Part shown: positions 243-45,206 of the stretch, in pieces
Layout: each line of letters begins with the position of its first letter
How positions within the stretch are numbered: the stretch's first letter is position 1
Source: Ceratodon purpureus
Lineage: Eukaryota > Streptophyta > Bryopsida > Pseudoditrichales > Ditrichaceae
Direction: 5' to 3'
Assembly: GCA_014871385.1 (NCBI GenBank)
Contig: CM026429.1
Location: 6,161,080 to 6,225,079, forward strand
Length of the DNA: 64,000 bases
The notes under the pieces: model-generated
The model's input: the letters and a program-made list of their open reading frames with translations, nothing else
What the model was told of the DNA's origin: nothing
Databases searched by the model: none
Position numbers and translations under genes: made by a program

Positions 243-1015
243 CACAAATTCCGTCATTAACTCGTGAGGCATACACCAATTTCGGAGCTGATCCAATATT
301 TTGGCAGTAAAACTTGCCATTAGGACAGGCCGAGGTTCCTGAACGACAACAATACAGAAGTTCGAATTAGACATGTTGCAATCTTGTGCACCATATTCTC
401 ATCCTGGCGCAGACTCGAGCGAAATTGAACGAGGATTGCCTGACTATGGACAGACCATACACATCTCAAACTGTTGGGACTGCATTTGTAATCGCCAAAG
501 TTCACTGGCAATGGGTGATCAAACAGTAACTATCTTGCTTTGAATAATTTAGGTTTGTTTTGTTCAAGACAGTTGCAGCCCTTGGGATTGGTAAGAGGGA
601 CTTGGCTTAAATTCCAAGCAATGAGACTCAAAATGAAGATAAGTGGGTTTTCAAACATTGCTTATTTCATTGCAATTGTTGATGATTGGAAGATGATTGA
701 GAGATCATTCAGAGAGATCAACTAAGTTTTAGCTTGAACCCCCTGTCAAGAGAAAACGTGAGCATACTCACCAGGCTCGTCTGTCCCATCTGCACAATCA
801 CAGAAATTGTCGTTGAGCCGCTCCCGAGGAAACGACTTGGACCCATCCTTGCACCAGATAGTCTCACCCTGGTAATGAGCCAAATCTGTGTCCAAAACCT
901 CATCCATGTCAACACCCCACCCATCGTTCCACGACCACCGAAGACCCATCCCGCAGACAATATTCCATTCCGAACCCACACAACATAACCCCCAAATACT
1001 CTCCTCCCAAAACAA
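243..1015 (-). CDS. Glucosidase II beta subunit-like protein, 5' part (runs off the left edge)
   Basis: Two exons are visible. One ends at a GT donor at 771-770 and encodes [20 protein letters not shown] followed by ADGTDEPG. The other (338-243, acceptor AG 340-339) encodes [18 protein letters not shown] followed by [13 protein letters not shown]. Joined in phase 1 they give the Cys-rich, Ca-binding LDL-receptor-A-like N-terminal domain of the PRKCSH/glucosidase II beta family. That family's full-length members anchor the ER enzyme trimming N-glycan glucose; plants also have short paralogues carrying only this domain, and the [12 protein letters not shown] wording resembles those. Further exons must lie left of base 1. 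The N-terminus is unclear: the open frame reaches 1015, but no convincing signal peptide is seen, so the start may be the Met at 907, an unseen upstream exon, or damaged. Family assignment is solid; functionality is unknown. Confidence 0.72.
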
Positions 1016-1484
1016 TCAAATCCTTCATGATCCTCCACCCTAATCTCATACACAACTGTTTAATACTCTCCTACACCATGCAACCACCTGAACCTGATCA
1101 TAACTCCAACACATACCAACTTGAATTCACCGCATTTCCTCCACAATTCCGATCAAGGCAGTTCAAGTACGTTCATCTGAACCCCCATCCTAACCCATCT
1201 CAAATCAAACTCCAGTAATATAACTGTCAACCGCTAGATCATGAGAATCTGTAACTGAAACTGAGTGATGAGTTCTGATCCTAAAGATGAAGATCGGATC
1301 AGGTGAGCTTGATTACTTACCTCGAGGATCGATTCCACGGATCGGTGAAGACTGGTCTGCTATGGTGAAGCATGTCACGGACGTCGACAGTATGATTGCT
1401 AGCGTGAGGTGGAAGCTCCGGCATTGTGGAAGGTGGAGCATGATGGATGATGAGGTTTCGATGAGGGATGAGTTGGTCTAGTAG

Positions 1485-2580
1485 ACAGTGGAGTGCATTT
1501 CGGAGTCACGGCGATCCTCGTGCAAGACGATGATCATGATGATCATCGGAGGTCAGACATCGCCATCGCCGGAGTGTTTGTTGCCAACAGTCGCAGCTTT
1601 CGTGCCAACAGTCGCAGCTTTCGTGCCAACAGTCATCACTCATCATCATCGTCATCGACTCTCCTTTTCATTCATCATTCGATCTGGTGCTTTCATCCCT
1701 CTGGGATGCTTCTTCCCAAGTTGGACGGAGTTTAAGTTAGTTTGTGAATTCCAAGGTATTTTTTTTTCAACTAAGATTCACACTGAGCCAGCCACCAAAA
1801 ACCAGGGGCAAGGTAACTTAGTGGTGCATATTTTTGACTGAATTTCAGCTTTGCATACGTAGGCATGTGATACAAAAAGTTTGTAAGTTTCGGATGCTCT
1901 GCTTAGTGCAAAGGCATTTAAAAATTTAAAAAAAATTAAAAAAAATAAATTAAAAAAAAACACGTTATTTGAGCATTTCTATAATTTGTGTGAGTTTTAA
2001 GCTTTCAAGTATTGAGTGGCCATTAATTGCCAAGTCTTGGTTGTCACAAGAGGTTGGATTTTGAAAATAGTGCGCTTACTGTGCTAATATGCACTCAACT
2101 TTTCCAAGCACATAGATAATGAGAATATTATTTGACACTTTTGAAACTATGTTGGGTGGTTTTTGGAACACAAATCCTTAATTTTAGGAGTTGGAGATAT
2201 ACATTGATACTTTAATATGAGTTGGCTAGAGTGGTTGAAGGGATGGGGTTAAGATTACATCTAGCCTGCTTGGCTAAACTTGGCTCGCTCCCACTACATC
2301 ACCTTATTTGAGTTTAACATTTTTTTTTTTTTACCTCATTTATGCTTATAGTTGAAGAAAATACTTGAATAAAACAATTGTAGACCTCATTTGATTAAAA
2401 TTTGTTTTGAATTGAATTTTGCGAAGATATTGACAAGAGTGGTATTAAATACAATAGTGACAATATGTTGCCAAGAGAATAGTTTTATACTTCTTTTAGC
2501 ATGAGTAAATTATGGGGCACTCATTTGGTGCTAATGCACAATCATTTTTATAAGCTCTTATTAATCTTCATTGTAAAAAG
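1485..2580 (+). repeat. Dispersed 1.1-kb repeat, copy 1 (direct repeat of 6392-7560)
   Basis: Starts at ACAGTGGAGTGCATTT and can be aligned with 6392-7560 over its whole length. Shared blocks include GGAGTCACGGCGATCCTCG near the start, GTTGGATTTTGAAAATAGTG in the middle (about 2051) and TTTTATACTTCTTTTAGCAT near the end (about 2480). Copy 1 has a tandem duplication of about 23 bp (GCCAACAGTCGCAGCTTTCG units at 1585-1630) where copy 2 has a single unit. No TG...CA termini are seen, so it is not an obvious LTR. The family is not recognised. Confidence 0.75.
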
Positions 2581-2651
2581 AATTGTGCCAGTCATTTTTG
2601 TGGCTCTATACTCATCAAAAGCTTAGGTCAGTGACTCAATGATTAACTTAC

Positions 2652-3751
2652 CATAATTTTGGCATGATCATTAGGAGTAAGATCACCATTCACATCAACC
2701 ACAAGTGGCTCAAGAGCCCATTCATGGTTGATAAGCAGATGAAGAAACCTACATGGTTACAAGGATTTCTGACATGTCAGAACAAATAACAAGCTCTCAA
2801 ACCCTCTTGCAGCAAAAGAAACATATAGAAATGCTGAAAATTTTTGTGATTTATTTGGAGAGATCCAAAAAACAGACGCAATAATAATTGATCAGACTGG
2901 GAAAAATCTCAACATCAATTGATTTCCACCAATGATCTAATGGTAACAAAAATATCCATTCTTGCTCAACTAAAATCAGAGCTTAACCTCTCAACATTGA
3001 AAAAAAGTGAATTGTAAGACATAAACCAAGCCACCTTAAGAACCCGGTAACACTTGACGATGGAGGGAGATGTGGAAAGGGATGCACACAAACATATGTC
3101 ACCAGTAATTCAATAACCTCCTTGGTCAAAACACCTGAAAAGAAATGAGACCATATCCATCGCTTTGCAAGACGAACAGTTGGCCCAAATGCCGGATATG
3201 TACCATACAAGCCCTGTATTAAACTTGAATGTGAACTTTGAAGCAATAGGTCTTGAGTAGAAGAGACTGTCCCCAACTGCTCATCATCCTTGGAAGTCAT
3301 GGCTCTTGTAGGATCCTTGTCGTACATGAGTAACAGTCTGAAGACATAACCCTCCATTATGATATCAACCGCATCCTCAGAGGCAATGCACCCAACACCG
3401 TATTTCTTTCGCAAGCTGTACAGAAATTATGAAGAGCATTTATCAGTCCAGTACACTCTTCGTCATCAGAGTTTACAATATGAACAACAAGCTAGTGTCT
3501 GGTAAGACCTGAGGGTTTCGGCATTTCAGCGTTCCATATCTCTCTAAGCAATAAACAAATCTATGGGGTAACTGCAGTCACATTAATGATCATTTTATAT
3601 CAGCAAACGACTAAAAACAGGTAATAGTTGAAGCCCTCCGGGAATGTAATCAGTTGGGGCCATTTTACCTTTGAGCAATCTGTAAGCAAAAAGCAGCCTT
3701 TGTTTCCCTTATAGCAACTGGAGCTTCAGGCCAATTTCCGGAACCTTCCAG
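2652..3751 (-). pseudogene. NOL6/Nrap (nucleolar protein 6) gene fragment
   Basis: Three exons splice in frame: 3751-3669 (EGSGNWPEAPVAIRETKAAF), 3415-3035 (ASEDAVDIIMEGYVFRL, SSHSSLIQGLYGTYPAFGP, VRLAKRWIWSHFFSGVLTKE, TGFLR) and 2748-2652 (FLHLLINHEWALEPLVVDVN GDLTPNDHAKIM in two parts). Each has GT-AG borders (for example donor at 3034-3033, acceptor at 2750-2749). The order and wording match the C-terminal half of Nrap/NOL6/Utp22, a nucleolar pre-rRNA processing protein of the small-subunit processome. The N-terminal half is not found upstream, and the last domain is missing because a dispersed repeat begins about 70 bp past the last exon. Reading frames are intact within the fragment, so the truncation may be recent. 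A distant continuation outside the window cannot be excluded but is unlikely given the opposing gene at 4938 and the glucosidase gene at 243. Confidence 0.72.
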
Positions 3752-4937
3752 CTGCAATCACCAAGTTGACAACAGGAAAGTCATGCACAAGATATTCTTT
3801 GTAGAAATTTTCATTTCAAAATAAAACTCTCGAACAATGGCCACAGTGGTAGTGAGGTAGAAACACTTTTGCAAAATGGAATGTGAACAAATGGAAAAAA
3901 GTGCACATGGAACCAATGCACACAACAACCAACTACCAGGCGCATGATCAAAGAGAAACAGCAGAAACACAACAAATAACAATATCCACGCAGTTTATAA
4001 TAAACACGCACAAAAACGAGCCTGAAGGCGCACAGAACAGTGACCTTGTGGTTGCTAATCACTCATGGCACTCTCTTAAAAAATTAAAATTTCAAAATTT
4101 ACCAATACCGTAAGCCTCCAGACCATTACCGATAACAAGCGTGTGTTGAAGTACCTGGTTCCCATGCATACACCCTGAGCATTGTTTTGAGTTTGTAGCG
4201 GAATGGTTTTTGCAATCGATATGGATTTAGGGTCAGGGTTCGGTCGATGACCAAACCGTAGTTGGATTTTCGGTTTTGGAGGGGTCTGACTACCCCCCGA
4301 GGGAGGGCTCCCATATGTGCTCATAGCTCTCTCACGCCATGACTTGTCGTTCCCGCTTGCACCTCTCTTTATCTGGGTTCGATCTGGTTGGGAGGTGGGA
4401 GGCTGGTTTGGATGCGTAGCTTCGTGCTCTTATCTCTCTCGCTTATGTTATCTCTGCTGGAGTTTAGGGGTTCTGTTTAGGTTCGTCTTCTAACATGTTT
4501 GTGAGGTTTGGTTGTCCGGTGTCGAGTCTCGTACGCTTTTTGTGTAAGTTTTTTGACTGGTGCTCTGAGGCTGTGAAGCCTGGTGGAACCTTAATAAGCT
4601 CAAATTCTAAATCTGACATATAAGGTTTAGTGGATTAAGAAAGAATGTTCTCTCGCCTGATAAGGACCTTTGTGATCTGTGCCCACAGAAATGTTCGATG
4701 TTGTTGCATGATTTCTTTATCGAGATAACAAAGTTTTCAGCTGTTCCTTGTGGTGGATTGCGCACTTGCGTGATAAGGTGTAGGTGTTGCAGTTGCAATG
4801 GGTGACTGGAAAATTGCTTGGGAAATTTTAGAGGTTTGTTGTGGTGTTTTCAGCAGTTCTTTTGTTTTACTACTGCCGGTATTGTTGTGAAGCATTCTAA
4901 GAGGTGAAGTTGCATGTTTTGTTGCTGCCAGAGCTCC

Positions 4938-6443
4938 ATGATGGCCTCCATAGACCTGGACACGTTCTTTGAAGGTTTTGGACTTCGACCTGAAACCGTT
5001 CGTAAAATCAAGGAGACGGGATTGACTGCAACAACGCTCATATCTAACGTTGATGAGCTCCCGTCGTTATTAGAGGCGATTAATCGACATCACCAGCTGA
5101 CGCTTGCGGAGGAATGGGGCATCAAAGGCGCTGCGAAGAAGTGGCTACGAGGTGGGAACTGTGACCTTTTGCTAGAATTTTCACTTCTAAAACTAGTCAA
5201 GAAGTAGGGTATCATGCGGTATGATTTTATTTTTTTGCGACCTGACAGGGTTTAGGGTTTATGGTGTGAAGTCGTATCATATTAGAAAGAGCTACTACTT
5301 GTTGGATGCTCTGGCCTTTTTTTAGGTGTCTTGAAATTTTTTGGATTGTTTTTCATTTGTTGTTTGATTGAATCCGTCCTCTCGTACTTCAAGGTTTTTG
5401 TTCTTCACCTTGTGAACTTGCGCTCTTTTGGCAATGCTGGTTTCTTAAGGTTTCTTCAATGCACTGATTGCAAACCTAGAGATTGTTGTATTGATTCCTA
5501 TCTCGTCTTTTTGCTTAGAATAGCGGGTTAGGGTAGTACCTCATTTAATCGCCCAACATTGACTGTGACCGTTGTGTTTGCAGAGGAAGTGCGAGCTTCA
5601 AAGAAACCAACGGTGCCAAAACTGGATTCAGCTGCGATATTTGCTAAACAATGTGCGTATATGCAGGACCTGTTGGCGCCCCCTGATGAGCTCCCCATTG
5701 CAGCCGCAAAAATTAAGGAATTTTTGGCCACAATACAAGGACCGCTTCCAGTTCAGAATCGTCACACGATGGAATCTGTAAAGGATGATCGGTTGGTCAA
5801 GTTATGTAGTCCAGGGGAGCAGAAAATTGCAATGCAAGTGGACATTATCTTGTCTCATTATTGCAAGATTCCTGTACGCAATGAGACAGATAGCTTGCAC
5901 ATTTTGCGGCTACTCACTGGAGATTTTCTGCTATTCATAAACTCCTTTGCCCCAGCCAAATGCGAATTGCCGTCCTTAGAGACGTCAATGGATTCAGGCA
6001 GAATTGTCACTTCCGCTGCCGTTTCGGCACTTGTTCACCTCATGCGTCCACATTATACGCTGTATCTGAGGAACGCACTCATTCTCCGGTGGAAGAATAA
6101 GTTAGACGAAGGAGAATTTCAAACAGCTTTGGAAGAAAACACCAATAAATTGAAGGTATGGAGCCCTCTTTACTATGGTGAATTGCCGTATGTGATCGGA
6201 GGCTGCAGCACTGGAAGATCATTTCAGTGGTTAAAGCTGTCACCAAAAGATAGGAAGATTATTGCTGAACCTATCTCACAGATCTTTGATACACATCGGG
6301 AGACTAGTGTAGCTAAATTGCTGCATAGTGTAGTTCAAATGCATCGGCTCTTACAAAAGCTGGAGCAAAAATTAACCACACCTATCCCTATACAGTGGAG
6401 TGCATTTTGGAGTCACGGCGATCCTCGTGCAAGACGATCATGA
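4938..6443 (+). CDS. Unknown two-exon protein, 3' end replaced by a repeat
   Basis: Exon 1 (4938-5151) starts with MMASIDLDTFFEGFGLRP and ends at a GT donor. Exon 2 begins after the AG at 5582-5583 and is open to a TGA at 6441-6443, giving about 357 residues. The first 70 residues look like a small helical SAM-type bundle (inference). Residues 75-340 are a well-formed globular sequence (for example LVHLMRPHYTLYLRNALILRW and WSPLYYGELPYVIGG) that I do not recognise. The frame runs into the dispersed repeat at 6392, so the last 15 or so residues (WSAFWSHGDPRARRS) are repeat-encoded and the native C-terminus is lost. A short uORF-like Met in the same frame lies at 4914. It could be a host gene truncated by insertion, or a transposon-borne gene. 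It diverges from the NOL6 fragment on the other strand. Confidence 0.5.
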
Positions 6444-7560
6444 TGATCATCGGACGTGGGGCATCGCCATCGCCGGAGTGTTTGTTGCCAACAGTCGCAG
6501 CTTTCGTGCCAACAGTCATCACGGCTGAGAGTCATCATCATCATCGACGTACTCTCCACTTTCATCCATCATTTGGTCTGAAACTTTCATCCTTTAGGAA
6601 GATCCTTCCCTTTAAATTTGTGAATTTAACCCTCTTTTTTTTAACCAAGATTCACAAGGGGCACACTGGACCAGCCACCAAAAACCAGGGGTAAGGTAGT
6701 GGTGCATATTTTGGATTTCAGCTTTGCATGTGTAGTGCTCCTACAAGGTTAGTGCAAAAAGGTTAGTGCACATACAAAAAGTGCAAAGCATCCAAAACCT
6801 TTATAAACTTTATATGTTTGCTCATACACACACAAAATGTTTATAGGTTTTGGATGCTCACCAAGGTTAGTGCAAAGGTTTTTTTATAAAAATTTAAAAA
6901 ATAATAATAATAATAAAAATTAAAATTAAAAACCAGGATTTTTGAGCATTTTTGTAAATTTTTATGAGTTTTTTTAAGATTTATGAGCGTCCTAGTTGTT
7001 ATGAGAGGTTGGATTTTGAAAATAGTGCGCTTACTTTGCCAATTAGATGGACTCAATTTTCACCAAGCATAGAAGTAATTAGAACATTCTTAGAAATTTT
7101 TGGAAACTAGATAGGGTGGTTTTTGGAACCCAACCCCTGAATCTTAAGAGTTGGAAATTGGGCTTAGTTAGAAATGGACATTGCTACTTTAATATGAGTT
7201 CGCTAGAGTCGTTGAAGGGATGGGGTTAACATTACATCCAGGCAATTTGGCTAAACTTGGTTCGTTGGCCTATACATCATCCTATTTAAGTTTAATACCT
7301 TTACTTTACCTCATCGATGCTTAGATTTGAAGAAAATACTTGAATATAGCAATCGTAGACTTCAATTGTTTTAAATATATATTTTGCAAAAATATTGACA
7401 ACAGTGATTATAAATACAATAACGACACAATAACAACAATAAATTGCTAAGAAAATAGTTTTATACTTCTTTTAGCATGAACAGATTATGCGGCCGCCAT
7501 TTGGCCCTAATGTACAAGCATTTTTATAAGCCATTATCAATCTACATAATCAAATAAAAG
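6392..7560 (+). repeat. Dispersed 1.1-kb repeat, copy 2
   Basis: Second copy of the 1485-2580 repeat, same orientation, visibly diverged by substitutions and small indels. It begins ACAGTGGAGTGCATTTTGG at the point where the unknown 4938-6443 frame loses its own sequence. The end is near TTTTTATAAGCC followed by a short A-rich tail (about 7540-7560). I see no clear target-site duplication around either copy. Confidence 0.72.
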
Positions 7561-9065: not shown

Positions 9066-9841
9066 TAAATTATCATGAAATCTCAATGTACTAGCTACTT
9101 CAAAAATTCATACTAACTTCAATCTCCAAAATAAAAATGTACAAAATCACACATTGGTCATTAAAATAGAAGTATAGAGTACAAACTTCTAAGTTACCTC
9201 GGTGTTACTATATTCAGAGGTCAAAAAAAACTTGACTACTTCTGTGATTGGAAGAGAGCTCCAAAAGAGGTGGAAAACCCTCACATGATTAAGGTTAGAA
9301 ATGACTCAGGCCCATTGCCGCTTTATAGACTCATACCCCGATTTAATCCTACTAAAAAGAGATTTCTAAAAAAATCCAAAGACGGACCTATTAAAAAACA
9401 CATGGATCTTCTAATTTAAGGAAAAGATGGGCATTCCCGTTAGGATTCTAATTCCATTCCCTAGCAGTACACCAATATTTGAGCAGACAGCACCTGACTA
9501 CCACACTTAGCAGATTGTATAACAACCTATCATGTTCTCCATGCAAGAATCTTCGTATTGCATATTGCATATGCTGTTGCACTTCATATATTCATGAAAA
9601 TTTGATAAATTTCCGAAAAAAAAGTTAAAAAATCAGATTTGTAATTTCTGGCCTAACATCAATTTGTATAAATTTTATCCCCATATTTTTCTCAATCCCA
9701 AATATGCTGAATGGCTTAAACTGACGGGAATACTCATCTCTACCTTAGTTGCTTGTTTCATGGCAATCAACGTCAAAAAGCAAAGCACAGTGTTCATGGG
9801 TCGGAAATGCAGAGGCGTTGAGAACGCCATGGGAACCCGGA
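9066..9841. other. Intergenic DNA, no gene seen
   Basis: Moderately AT-rich sequence between the MITE candidate and the minisatellite. Only short shadow ORFs (for example 9664-9873) are present. Presumably the distal promoter of the RPN1 gene. Confidence 0.45.
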
Positions 9842-10336
9842 AAACAGATAGAGAACAGATAGGGAACAGGTAGAGAACAATTGGGGAACATGTGAGGAAC
9901 ACATGGGGAACAGATGGGGAACAGATGGGGAACAAGAGGGGAACAACTGATAGAGAACACAAGGAACAAGAGGGGAACAAGAGGGGAACACGAGAGGAAC
10001 AAGAGGGGAACACGAGAGGAACAAGAGGGGAACAGGATGGGAACAAGAGAGGAACAAGATGGAAAGAAGAGAGGAACAAGATGGGAACAATAAGGGAACA
10101 GGAGGGGAACAAGAAGGGAACAAGAGAGGAACAAGAGAGGAACAAGAGGGGAACAGGATGGGAACAAGAGAGGAACAAGATGGGAACAATAGGGAACAGG
10201 AGGGGAACAAGAAGGGAACAAGAGAGGAACAAGAGGGGAACAGGATGGGAACAAGATGGGAACAATAAAGGAACACGGGGGAACAAGAAGGGAACAAGAG
10301 GGGAACAAGAGGGGAACAAGAGGGGAACAAATGGGA
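9842..10336. repeat. GGGAACAAGA minisatellite upstream of RPN1
   Basis: About 500 bp built from variants of a 10-11 bp unit (GGGAACAAGAG, GGAACAAGAT, GGAACAGGAT, GGAACACGAG). Higher-order blocks of about 110 bp recur, for example AACAAGATGGGAACAATA at 10077, 10167-10190 and 10253-10268. The tract ends about 215 bp before the RPN1 start codon, so it sits in the promoter or 5' UTR. Its periodicity keeps several frames open, notably Pro/Leu/Phe/Ser/Cys-repeat frames of 200-380 codons on the minus strand; these are artefacts. Confidence 0.9.
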
Positions 10337-10552
10337 AAGCAGAGTACGAGGATGCGAAGACGACGCCATCGACGCAGGGCAGCCTGAGCAATCGCACACT
10401 CCGAACCCACCACCACAATCCTCCGCAAACGCCCGCAGGGGCTGCGATTACACTCCCCACGCCACGCCCATCGCCACCCCTGCCTCCACACCTCTCCATC
10501 GACCCCCGCCTCGCCCCATTTGGCACACGGGCGAGCATTTCCGCCCCCCGCC

Positions 10553-13500
10553 ATGGCGCCCGACCCCAAGGAGAACGGAGGAGCGCTCGGGGAGCACATG
10601 GACCTCGACGCAGGCGCGCTGCCGCCCTCCGGAAACAAGGACGCCGTGAAGCCGTCCAGCAAGAAGAAAAAAGACGAGAAGAAGAACAAGGACGATGACT
10701 TGGTGAGTCTCCCCTCAGCTCGAATTTTCGGTAGTTTTTGTGTTGGGGAGTGGCTCTGGGGTGTGTTGTGAGTGTTCGATTGCGTGTTCGATTGCGTGTT
10801 CGATTGAGTTTCGGCACTGGGAGATTGGTGGAGTTTGGAGAGGGTGAGCTGCGGGTTGCAGGTGTGGTCGGAGAGGAGAATTGCGGTGAAACCCTAGTTT
10901 TGGTGGTTTTTGGGTGCGTTGATCGGGGGATTGGGAGGAGGTTGGGATTGGTGTCGGTATGAGGTTTTGGATTGGAGTGCGATCGTGATTAGGTTTTTGG
11001 GGTTTTTGATGGGGTGAGTGGTGAGGTTGGAGAGAAGACGAATTGGGGTGAAACCCTAGTTTGGGGGTCGTTTGATGATGTGGGAGGTCAGTGGTGGTTG
11101 TAATTTGCTGTAGCTGTGGTTTTTCGATTGGGTTCTGGTGGTAGTAGCTCGTTGGAGTTCAATTGGAGGGAGCTCTGGTGAGAGACGAGGTCGGAGTGAA
11201 GAATTGGGGATGGAACCCTAGTTTGTCAGTTTTGATTGTGTTGATCGCGCGATGGATAGTATCGTACGAGGTTTGTAGATGGAGATGTTGGATTGGAGCC
11301 CGATGATGCCAGCTCAACGGAGTTTCAACAGGGTGCAGATGAGTCGTGAAGACAGAATTGAGCCAAAACCCTAGTCTGTGTATTTGACTGTGTTGATTGC
11401 GCAATGGATAGCAGCCTAGGAGCCTTGAAGATTGAGATAAGCTGCACATACAGTAGGTCTTTGGTGCGGTTTTAGTGCGATACTCTGTAGTTATGGAGCT
11501 GACTGGTTGGGGATCATGGGATAGTGTCTTTTGTTGTTAGGTTGGTTTATTGTAATTTGTTGGCTCGTTGAGTTAGAATGGGTGGCTCTGGTCGAAGCCA
11601 ATGAAGTGAACCGAAAGCCTAGATTTTTAATTTGATGATGCTGGAAGTCAGTGGTGATCGCAGAATTGATCGCACAATTTATAGATTTAGATTATCAGGT
11701 TTTTGGTGTCTCTTTAGTATTCAAGCTTTCATCGGGAGGATTCTGGTTTTGGGATGAGATGTTTGCGAATTTGACGCTGTTGCCAGTCATGGAGCTGATT
11801 GGTTGGGTAATCATGTTGTGGAGGTTCAATAGTTTGCGATTGTCGGTTGATTCAAGAGGAGCCCTTGAGTTGGGCTGTTGTTTAAATTGTTGATTCGGAG
11901 TGAGGCCTATGGAGTTGAAGGAAATGTTCTTGGTTACGAAAGCCATTTGACGGATTAGATTGTCATGGTTCTAAGTTATGTTCTATTTGAATGACCTGCA
12001 GTCGGAGGAAGATCTTGCTCTTAAGCAGCAGTTGGAACTATATGTCGAAAGAGCTCAGGATTCAGATGAGGGAATTCAACGAGTTGCTTTGGAAGCTATG
12101 AGGTACACTTTGCAGAGCATAGTATGTGATCAAGTTTTAATTGCAATCTCCACAAGAGTGGCTTGATTCGGACTGACAGCTAAGAATGATACGTTCGATT
12201 GTGAATGCTGCTGGTTTTGTGCCTGGATATGATATTGCACGTAGATGGGAGTGGAGTCGTATGAAGCAGATAGTGTCTCATTTTGTGGAATGCTTGTTGC
12301 AGGCAAGAAATCAGGACAGCTACCAGCTCCATGACTTCAGTTCCTAAGCCTCTTAAATTTCTTAGACCGCACTACAAAACCTTGAAAACACATTACGAAA
12401 AAATGCCCGAATCTGAACTCAAGGTAATACATCATATCTTGATTCTCTAAGTGGTGTTCTCTTGGGTTTCTTTCATTCACATCGTATGAAAGATGTTTTC
12501 TGTATCCTATGACATTTCTGCGACATTTTGAGGACGCTGAGTGTTTTATTTCGACTTTTATTTTGCAGAGATTCATGGCGGATATTATATCAGTGCTTGC
12601 ACTCACTATGTCGGAAGAGGGTGACAGAGTAAGTCGTTTCCATCATTCTAGTTGTATCTAGTCGCAATGTCTTTGGGTTTGCAATGTAATCTGTGTGAGT
12701 GAGTTGATGTAAACCTCGGCGTTATACCTTGTGCAGGAAAGTTTGCGCTTCAGATTGCAGGGTACAGTCGGAGATATTGGTTCTTGGGGTCACGAATATG
12801 TCAGGTGTGTATAAGTTATTTCTTTTACTAAAGGAAGAATAGGCGTGTATGGTGATATCACACTAGAAACCTAAGCCATTACCTTTGGAATATGCTAGTC
12901 CGGTCGCCAGTTTTTTTGGTGGAAATCATGACGGGACTTAATGGGTAACTTGCACTTTGATATTCTGCAGGAACTTGGCTGGAGAGATTGGCAACGAGTT
13001 TCAACAACGGCAGGTATTTATTTTATACTCAAGGCATTCATTTTCTTGTTGTCTATTGCTTAGTTTTGACGTGTTTAGTTTCCCTTCAAGTTTTATTAAA
13101 ATGAATTCTAGTCGGACTTAATGGACCCTTTTGTATTATTATATTGATAGTTAATTATATAAATATGTTGCCCTTTTTGTTGATATCCTTGCAGGCTGCT
13201 GAGGAACCTGTCGATGACTTGATGGATCTGATTAAGCAGATTGTTCCATTTCATGTGAAGGTAATTATGGAATCACATGTTACTGTTTTTTACACCAGTT
13301 TGGTACGTCAGCTCGTAATAGTTGTTGCTTTGTCTCAGCAACAGAAGACTTCACTGTGGTGCCTTAATTAGATAAAGCGTGCATATCTGACAAGGTCTTG
13401 GTGCTATCTCTGCGCAGCATAATGCAGAACCCGAGGCTGTGGATCTTCTAATGGAGGTTCGTTGCTTGAATCTTGACAATTTGGTTCAAATATGAAATAT

Positions 13501-43345: not shown

Positions 43346-43904
43346 GCTTGAAGCATTATTGGAGCATTATTGGAGCAATAGAATCCAATTGTTAGAATAT
43401 CCAACTGTTAGAATATCCAACTGTTAGAATCAGAAACTAATGATTTTTTAGTCATTCATGTTTTTTACAATGGAAATGGCAGTTTTGGAGTGTTTTTTGG
43501 TGAAACATAGTCAAGAAACGTCAAGGATACATTTCTTTTACAGTGAATACCTTCTCTTCTGAAAATATACTTTTCCTTCATTGTTTATACTTTTCGTTCA
43601 TTCTCAAAACTTTTCTTTATTAATTTACTTTTCTTTCACTATTGATAATTTTCTTTATTTAATATGTTTTTCCTTTACAACTAGTACTTTCTTTAAAAAA
43701 TGTACTTTTCTTTTAACCTCCCATCATATCTTTAATGATGACACCATTTCTTTTACTGAAATGTATTTTCTTTCTAGATTTCTCACTTTTGTTAGGATTT
43801 TTAATTCTTTTCCATGAGATAAATTTTCAAGCCTACCTATGGCCAACGGTATGACTAATTTTCATGCCCGCACTAATGAGAACCCCAATTTGCATTACCT
43901 TTAA

Positions 43905-44765
43905 CCCCTAAACGGCCAAGGGTGTTTTTCATCAAAACTGCCTGAAAACAGCCTCTCTTCAAAGCAAGGTGGATTTTACAAACTTGGGGTCTTAATTAGT
44001 ACATCTAACCGTAAGATCTTGTAGCTAACTTCTATGTCTACATGTCCACCAAATCTTACACACTCATTCCTCACCAATTGCAAGATCATAATGTTCAAAG
44101 TTGAAAAACAAGTTTTTTTTCCCTGCCAAAAAGGGATCAGCAGAGTTTTGAAGGCCCAAAAAACCTTTTTTTTCCATTATGGATTTTGGGGGTTTTGATG
44201 CACGTCAAAGAAGACTGAGTTAGCTAATTGTGTTACAACATTTATATTCAAAAAAGTTGTAGAAGGTTGCCAAAACAATCATTTTCCGCTAGGGGGTATA
44301 CTGAAATTCACAAACAAAGGCCGTTTTTTGACAATAATAATAGCATATGAAATAAATTTTGATTAAAAATCCGAACGGTGAGAACATGCTCTACTACTTT
44401 ATCAATACATAGAAATTTTTATTTTTGAAAAATATTAAAATCTCAATTTTTGGTGGAATTTCAAAGTTTCGTCTTTAGGGCAGATTTGGGCAGATTTGGG
44501 CAGATTTGGGCAGTTTTGGGCAGTTTTGGGCAGAAATTGCTGCATTCACAGTGGCTGAGAGCCTGCCCGCGGAAGGGCGTTTTATGCTCAGAGGAGCATA
44601 ACTTTTTCTCACTTCATCCAAAAATAAATAAAAAAATATCCCCATAAATCTCTTGAAAAAACCTTTTACCACAAAAAAATTCAAAAAATTTCGAGTAAAT
44701 TTGAATTTTTAGGAACCTGCCCAAATTTCAAAAAAGCCCATTCTAGGACAATGGCCGTTTAGGGG
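43905..44765. mobile_element. piggyBac-like MITE with TTAA target sites
   Basis: The left end reads TTAACCCCTAAACGGCCA (43901-43918) and the right end reads TGGCCGTTTAGGGGTTAA (44752-44769), a perfect 18-bp inverted match. Taking TTAA as the duplicated target leaves 14-bp inverted repeats starting CCCC, an 861-bp element. TTAA targeting and CCC-starting ends are hallmarks of the piggyBac superfamily. No transposase is encoded. The interior has a six-fold 10-bp repeat (TTTGGGCAGA/TTTTGGGCAG) at 44482-44535 and partial inverse CTGCCCAAATTT near the right end. Confidence 0.78.
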
Positions 44766-45206
44766 TTAACAAAATAGCCAAATAGTATGATGCACAAGAT
44801 AATATGGACTGGCCATTTTAATGAATATGCCAATTAAAGTTTTGTAATAGATTATTGGACTTTTGGGTGAGTCGATGCGTAAGTGCACATAGTCTCTGCC
44901 CCAAGAGGACAGAGACAACAAACAACACCTTATTCACACTGGTCTCCAAAGGAGGCCAGATTTACTACTCTCCTTCTACGAGAAGGTGGAGAAGCATCTT
45001 TGGGAGAGCAAAGCGAGATCGGCGTTACTGGAAGTACGAACTCCGAACCCCACGTTCCCACGTTCCCACCTCCCGTTCCCCACAACCAAACTCCTCCCCT
45101 CACTCCGCCCACCTCCGCCACCGTCAGATCCCCCGACCCCACCACATCGACGCCTCACCGTCCCACCACCCCCCAAACCCGTCAAACCCCACAACAGCAC
45201 AACAGC

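Follow-up and report, generated by a model that had tools for sequence, protein, structure and literature searches.

A TTAA-bounded non-autonomous piggyBac element, and transposases between matching ends, in the moss Ceratodon purpureus

Known piggyBac systems and the moss host

piggyBac transposons target TTAA and end in short terminal inverted repeats that begin with CC, and typically CCC. The ends are given as 5'-CC..GG-3' in the accessible portion of PMC10045372, and the superfamily is used in genome engineering, including in rice (PMC10905368, in excerpt). In 2022, a review of transposable elements in land plants distinguished six TIR superfamilies, and the available piece of its table names Tc1-Mariner, hAT, Sola, MULE, PIF-Harbinger and CACTA, with piggyBac absent (PMC9033089). 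For angiosperms, an extract of PMC10004981 counts PiggyBac as one of seven MITE superfamilies, and the repeat table of the fern Ceratopteris, as excerpted from PMC6890710, holds 1230 PiggyBac pieces amounting to 122,417 bp, or ~100 bp each. The portions of these last three sources at hand describe no plant piggyBac transposase. The word piggyBac is absent from a paper on moss transposons (PMC7466625), and the only listed match that combined Ceratodon purpureus with piggybac was discarded because the word there is 'piggybacking' (PMC10619864). No report of endogenous moss piggyBac transposases appeared among the matches listed in the open-licence literature, a body of text that lies apart from the main Ceratodon genome paper. 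That paper reportedly names a new DNA-transposon group 'BryCo', and no paper carrying this name together with Ceratodon was found in the open-licence literature.

The locus described here lies in a 64,000-nucleotide window, by which we mean the whole stretch of DNA that was analysed (C9:6161080-6225079), in an assembly of 362,488,568 bp and 151 contigs. With very high confidence, the segment at 43901-44769 of this window represents a non-autonomous copy of a piggyBac transposon in the moss nuclear genome, presumably mobilised by a transposase that elements of the same genome with CCCCTAAACGGCCA ends encode. Its mechanism and family are those of an ordinary piggyBac; the surprise is the host. 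The moss system resembles Trichoplusia ni piggyBac (6x67) and piggyBat (9c0f) in its TTAA target, CCC-starting ends, sequence alignment and predicted fold, whereas the moss transposase core is ~27% identical to theirs and is accompanied by a long low-complexity N-terminal region, probable introns and a moss host. Like the angiosperm PiggyBac MITEs, the window element belongs among short non-coding elements assigned to piggyBac; those were grouped by terminal repeats and duplications, as far as the extract of PMC10004981 goes, whereas the moss element is also assigned through a transposase between the same ends. The Ceratopteris hits likewise come from a non-seed land plant, but in the excerpt of PMC6890710 they are ~100-bp pieces in a repeat table with no transposase gene described, in contrast to the moss transposases. 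Judged from these comparisons, the window element would be a new member of the piggyBac superfamily in a host group for which the matches listed included no transposase-backed report.

The LEAFY gene of this genome reads KMRDYVHCYALHCLD and ENVGAWCQACY in its DNA-binding part, and we take D at 312 together with C at 345 to be the moss type (type II). The type of a LEAFY gene depends on positions 312, 345 and 387, and Bryopsida genes are type II, according to the available part of PMC6588583; Ceratodon purpureus is described, in the accessible part of PMC8000587, as a species with a 360-Mb genome whose U and V chromosomes exceed 100 Mb. The sequence-only reading had placed the locus in plant nuclear DNA, and the moss-type LEAFY gene and a 110.5-Mb contig, the size anticipated for a sex chromosome of Ceratodon, support that placement. 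Within the window, a SAM_LFY profile match (31 bits, over the cut-off) lies at 4953-5135 on the + strand (C9:6166032-6166214); the genome holds seven such matches, one of which is the LEAFY gene.

The window element, its copies and its empty sites

The element measures 869 bp and is bounded by perfect 18-bp inverted ends, TTAACCCCTAAACGGCCA, that is, TTAA followed by CCCCTAAACGGCCA (43901-43918 on the + strand and 44752-44769 on the - strand, 0 mismatches). When the window was shuffled 100 times with its dinucleotides preserved, no shuffle gave two end matches at up to 3 mismatches, which confirms the perfect TTAA-bounded ends that had been proposed, and the repeats are short and start with CC, as in piggyBac. 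No open reading frame of at least 150 aa, the threshold of the listing, overlaps the element. It is thus short, non-coding and multi-copy and has its ends in common with a transposase-bearing element on C1 (L009, below), as befits a MITE or non-autonomous element; 869 bp is long for a MITE. GGGCAG or CTGCCC occurs 8 times within it, whereas letter-shuffled versions average 0.1, and the GGGCAG array may be a transposase-binding or spacer repeat. Coordinates are collected in Table 1.

Table 1. Features of the element and its surroundings (window positions).
Feature	Position	Strand	Basis
MITE-like non-autonomous piggyBac element, both TTAA copies included	43901..44769	.	Inverted ends, full-length copies, empty paralogous sites
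TTAA target site duplication, left copy	43901..43904	.	Single TTAA at four empty paralogous sites
TTAA target site duplication, right copy	44766..44769	.	Single TTAA at four empty paralogous sites
Terminal inverted repeat CCCCTAAACGGCCA	43905..43918	+	Perfect pair
Terminal inverted repeat CCCCTAAACGGCCA	44752..44765	-	Perfect pair
Right terminal region resembling 5' end of transposase-bearing elements	44587..44769	-	81-84% identity
Six GGGCAG copies, 10-bp spacing, inside the 869-bp element	44478..44533	+	Repeat finding
Left flank, an older low-copy repeat, source of the empty-site comparison	43601..43900	.	Paralogues on C6, C2, C7

Other copies with the same TTAA-flanked ends, whose presence the sequence-only reading had made a check on itself, are abundant. 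The 15-mer TTAACCCCTAAACGG has 473 exact occurrences in the genome (215 + 258), compared with 1 for the reversed control, and the core CCCCTAAACGGCCA, queried without TTAA, has 487, compared with 0 for its control. TTAA directly precedes the core in 91 of the first 100 of these 487 places; among the other nine, one reads TTAA plus an extra C and eight read one-base variants of TTAA, three of the eight having one common flank. Within the 50 ends listed for each chromosome, C1 holds 15 inward-facing end pairs of 815-870 bp and C2 holds 16 of 758-869 bp. When the whole 869-bp element was used as the query and the best 40 of 3842 first-look candidates were scored, at least 40 places (the window included) matched at 93-100% identity, 39 of them end to end, with two fragments in addition; these best copies lie on twelve of C1 to C13. 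The 300-bp flanks of 20 elements gave no mutual match except for loci retrieved twice, a single 46-bp match, and L028, an element nested inside another of the same kind. Sixteen non-autonomous copies, being the fetched loci that passed a filter on end motif and orientation (which left out L019, for one), were aligned, and 10 of them form the subfamily of the window copy under our own chosen cut of less than 12% difference from it. These lie 1.8-4.0% from their consensus, the window copy at 2.4%.

Two loci with unusual arrangements of ends were also recorded. At L010 (C1:27229727-27237845), the arms of an inverted repeat extend over at least 1763 bp at 99.9% identity, ~4.6 kb apart, and each arm carries one diverged element copy. 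At L012 (C1:7173636-7176253), two TTAACCCCTAAACGG ends lie within 310-bp perfect inverted repeats that reach ~60 bp into the flanks, so that the flanks are mirror copies.

The left flank of the window element made it possible to read the insertion site in its unoccupied form. The 304-bp segment on the left that ends with the first TTAA has 13 matches in the genome, itself included, and four others reach the insertion site, at C6:17207600 (93%), C6:8206603 (89%), C2:4836793 (83%) and C7:7114489 (79%). These sites are paralogues within the same genome. Aligned to the joined window flanks, all four lack the element and have one TTAA; the bases that follow are the same in three and diverged in the C2 copy. 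The window copy is therefore an 865-bp insertion with duplication of TTAA, the target behaviour of piggyBac, and no other target duplication was seen in the sites read, which bears out the TTAA duplication first proposed. L028 offers a second, weaker insertion case: when its flanks are joined across one TTAA, they give a gap-free alignment to 100 bases of the window element, and its relatives lack TTAA at the site, reading TTTA there.

A further site concerns L052, a transposase-bearing locus on C10. Its left flank (C10:16356570-16356973) is a low-copy repeat whose relatives on C4 and C3 keep GGTTAA where the transposon begins; there are six relatives in all, and in the three that were read the matches end before, at or 3 bases after TTAA. 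The arrangement looks as though L052 had inserted at the TTAA terminus of a different element.

Transposases between the same ends

The sequence-only reading had called for a DDE_Tnp_1_7 transposase with matching termini, and L009 on C1 provides one. This 5871-bp element (positions 1001-6871) has 18-bp ends identical to those of the window element and contains between them a stop-to-stop frame of 1050 aa that matches DDE_Tnp_1_7 in Pfam at 1.4e-80. Searched against PDB sequences (E 0.001), the frame found only T. ni piggyBac 6x67 (7e-28) and piggyBat 9c0f (2.7e-27). D656, D743, D860 and D863 are invariant in all 12 moss transposases of one alignment (A1) and fall on the DE, DN and GVDxxDQ motifs when aligned to T. 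ni piggyBac, whose catalytic aspartates are D268, D346, D447 and D450 in its own numbering; the catalytic aspartates of piggyBac thus have their counterparts in the moss. All 18 sequences of a second alignment (A2) share six invariant cysteines in the C-terminal domain, in keeping with the cysteine-rich domain of piggyBac transposases, while L030, which belongs to the 12 rows of A1 and stands outside A2, is without five of the six. A predicted model of the core (mean pLDDT 74.8) had 6x67 (E 6e-24) and 9c0f (E 1e-23) as its best PDB matches, at TM 0.59-0.70 with a high rmsd of 11.6-14.2, and Tn5 followed at E 3.5e-6. The 5' part is complete in four elements (L009, L032, L035, L043). All four keep a short exon MPRRGARSW(R/K)GKE followed by GT, as well as a TAG acceptor before the long exon, and in three of them GTAAGT stands close to where the long exon ends. 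The transposase gene probably has introns near both of its ends, as these splice-like signals suggest.

The relation between the window copy and the transposase-bearing elements is extensive at one end. Its right end is 84% identical to the 5' end of L009 over 185 columns and 81-82% identical to the 5' ends of L070-L072 over 158-209 columns. Its left end has at most ~20 bp in common with the 3' ends of the 11 transposase loci compared, and nothing in some of them; a direct autonomous parent was not found among those 3' ends. Because only one end is extensively similar, the 869-bp copy is no simple internal deletion of the transposons sampled. By the likeness of its sequence, it belongs with these transposase-bearing elements.

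Our profile search of the genome with PF13843, in which 116 of 999 candidates were scored, found at least 116 places, all 116 of those scored lying over the cut-off, compared with 0 of 14 control genomes. By our own count, 54 of these places combine an open frame of at least 900 aa with a match free of stops. Ceratodon purpureus has 13 chromosomes, and transposase domains are present on each of C1 to C13, contigs whose matches or lengths all reach past 16 Mb. The sequence-only reading had argued that a non-autonomous copy would point to an active or past autonomous element in the lineage; this expectation is supported by the shared ends of L009 and by the number of domains. Among the copies examined, core identity is 74-89% within the L009 group, 57% for L048 and 34-43% for further lineages. 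The ends found beside transposases consist of TTAA followed by CCCCTAAACGG, CCCCTAATCGG, CCCCTAAAGTT, CCCCTAAAATTC, CCCCTAATTGACC, CCCCCTAACGTCC or CCCTTAAACGTC, variants on one theme; L009, L051 and L052 were each read at both ends, the two ends of L032, L035 and L043 were assembled from two stretches each, and the others are represented by one end. The 3' end of L032, L035 and L043 is CCCCTAATCGG, and all 11 of the further L009-like loci fetched there have an end reading TTAACCCCTAA on their 3' side.

Evidence on age comes from L051 on C9 and L052 on C10, two 3.9-kb elements with 1073-aa frames and TTAA-bounded inverted ends. They are 99.1% identical over 3904 columns on two chromosomes with no match in their flanks, the match starting at TTAA and stopping 2 bp beyond the other TTAA, and this near-identity reads as a sign of recent movement. 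L049 and L050, paired by their equal domain scores, are 83-94% identical in three pieces, and the end finder detected no inverted TTAA ends at either. A transposase tree that included the two PDB chains had very long outgroup branches, with a program warning of long branches meeting, and therefore gives no position for the moss lineages relative to animal piggyBacs. Viral contigs scanned with A1 gave 74 pattern matches and 0 transposase relatives, and thus no viral carrier or outgroup.

These observations lead to a conventional mechanism. A piggyBac transposase made by elements of the same genome with CCCCTAAACGGCCA ends would bind the ends of the window element, would excise it, and the excised element would be joined into a TTAA site with duplication of that TTAA. 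We infer that these transposases moved this particular copy. The moss piggyBac transposases may be expressed and active, and, by analogy with other piggyBac elements, excision of the window element would be seamless.

Competing explanations and wider meaning

The initial reading of a piggyBac-like MITE is upheld jointly by the ends, the copies, the empty sites and the same-ended transposase element, and it has to be weighed against two other superfamilies that could mimic its termini. If the element were a Stowaway-like MITE of the Tc1/mariner superfamily that duplicates TA, TTAA would be composed of that TA, a preceding T and the first A of the inverted repeat, and the inner TA is indeed a direct repeat on both sides; Stowaway MITEs are, moreover, a plant class in the available parts of PMC9033089 and PMC10004981. 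The exact TTAA, with its outer T and A, stands at 91 of the first 100 core ends, with eight of the other nine one base off. It is in the main the piggyBac transposase encoded by the same-ended L009 that refutes this reading, which we consider very improbable. A Tourist-like MITE of the PIF/Harbinger superfamily, which would duplicate the 3 bp TTA or TAA, is suggested by the presence of both triplets in TTAA, but no 3-bp direct repeat can be placed, the left TTA/TAA being the reverse complement on the right, and both the empty sites with one TTAA and the DDE_Tnp_1_7 nature of the transposase refute it, leaving it a negligible probability.

The host and the state of the family raise two further alternatives. 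Since piggyBac is best known from animals, the sequences could derive from contamination of the assembly by a piggyBac-carrying animal or protist; no evidence in support was found, and the explanation, rejected here as scarcely credible, is opposed by the spread of transposase domains over each of C1 to C13 and of the best window-element copies over twelve of them, by the protein kinase, DUF565 protein and P450 fragment encoded in the same 64 kb, and by the occurrence, in the same genome, of both occupied and unoccupied sites within one family of repeats. It is also unlikely that the transposases are domesticated host genes or dead and the elements relics. Stops do interrupt some transposase frames (for example L033, L034, L036 and L043, the last within its domain), but L009, L051 and L052 lie inside TTAA-bounded elements with inverted ends, about half of the at least 116 dispersed domain copies have long open frames, and L051 and L052 are near-identical from TTAA to TTAA. 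The piggyBac family is more than a relic because of these at least 116 transposase domains and the one near-identical pair on two chromosomes.

Taken as a piggyBac family of the moss, these elements bear on the range of the superfamily as a whole. Our broader proposal, tentative and in our estimate somewhat short of an even chance, is that piggyBac constitutes a large superfamily of DNA transposons in mosses that has gone unrecognised and was recently active, and that the several deeply separated lineages in one genome could reflect long cohabitation or repeated horizontal acquisition. If so, a plant lineage hosts TTAA-specific, possibly seamlessly excising transposons. A land-plant genome with hundreds of piggyBac ends, at least 116 transposase domains and a sign of recent movement would alter the known host range of the superfamily. 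The origin of plant piggyBac, whether by old inheritance or by horizontal transfer, is now directly testable, and piggyBac vectors introduced into mosses might encounter endogenous transposases.

Two minor observations concern distribution and neighbouring sequence. C6, the sex-chromosome-like contig of 110.5 Mb that makes up 30% of the assembly, holds 1 of the 40 best window-element copies (binomial 9e-6; best 40 of 3842) and 19 of the 116 scored transposase domains (binomial 4e-4; 116 scored of 999 candidates), which is only suggestive of avoidance or loss on that contig. Elsewhere in the window, positions 9675-10817 hold an apparent long GTTCCC-type repeat array with overlapping open frames on both strands.
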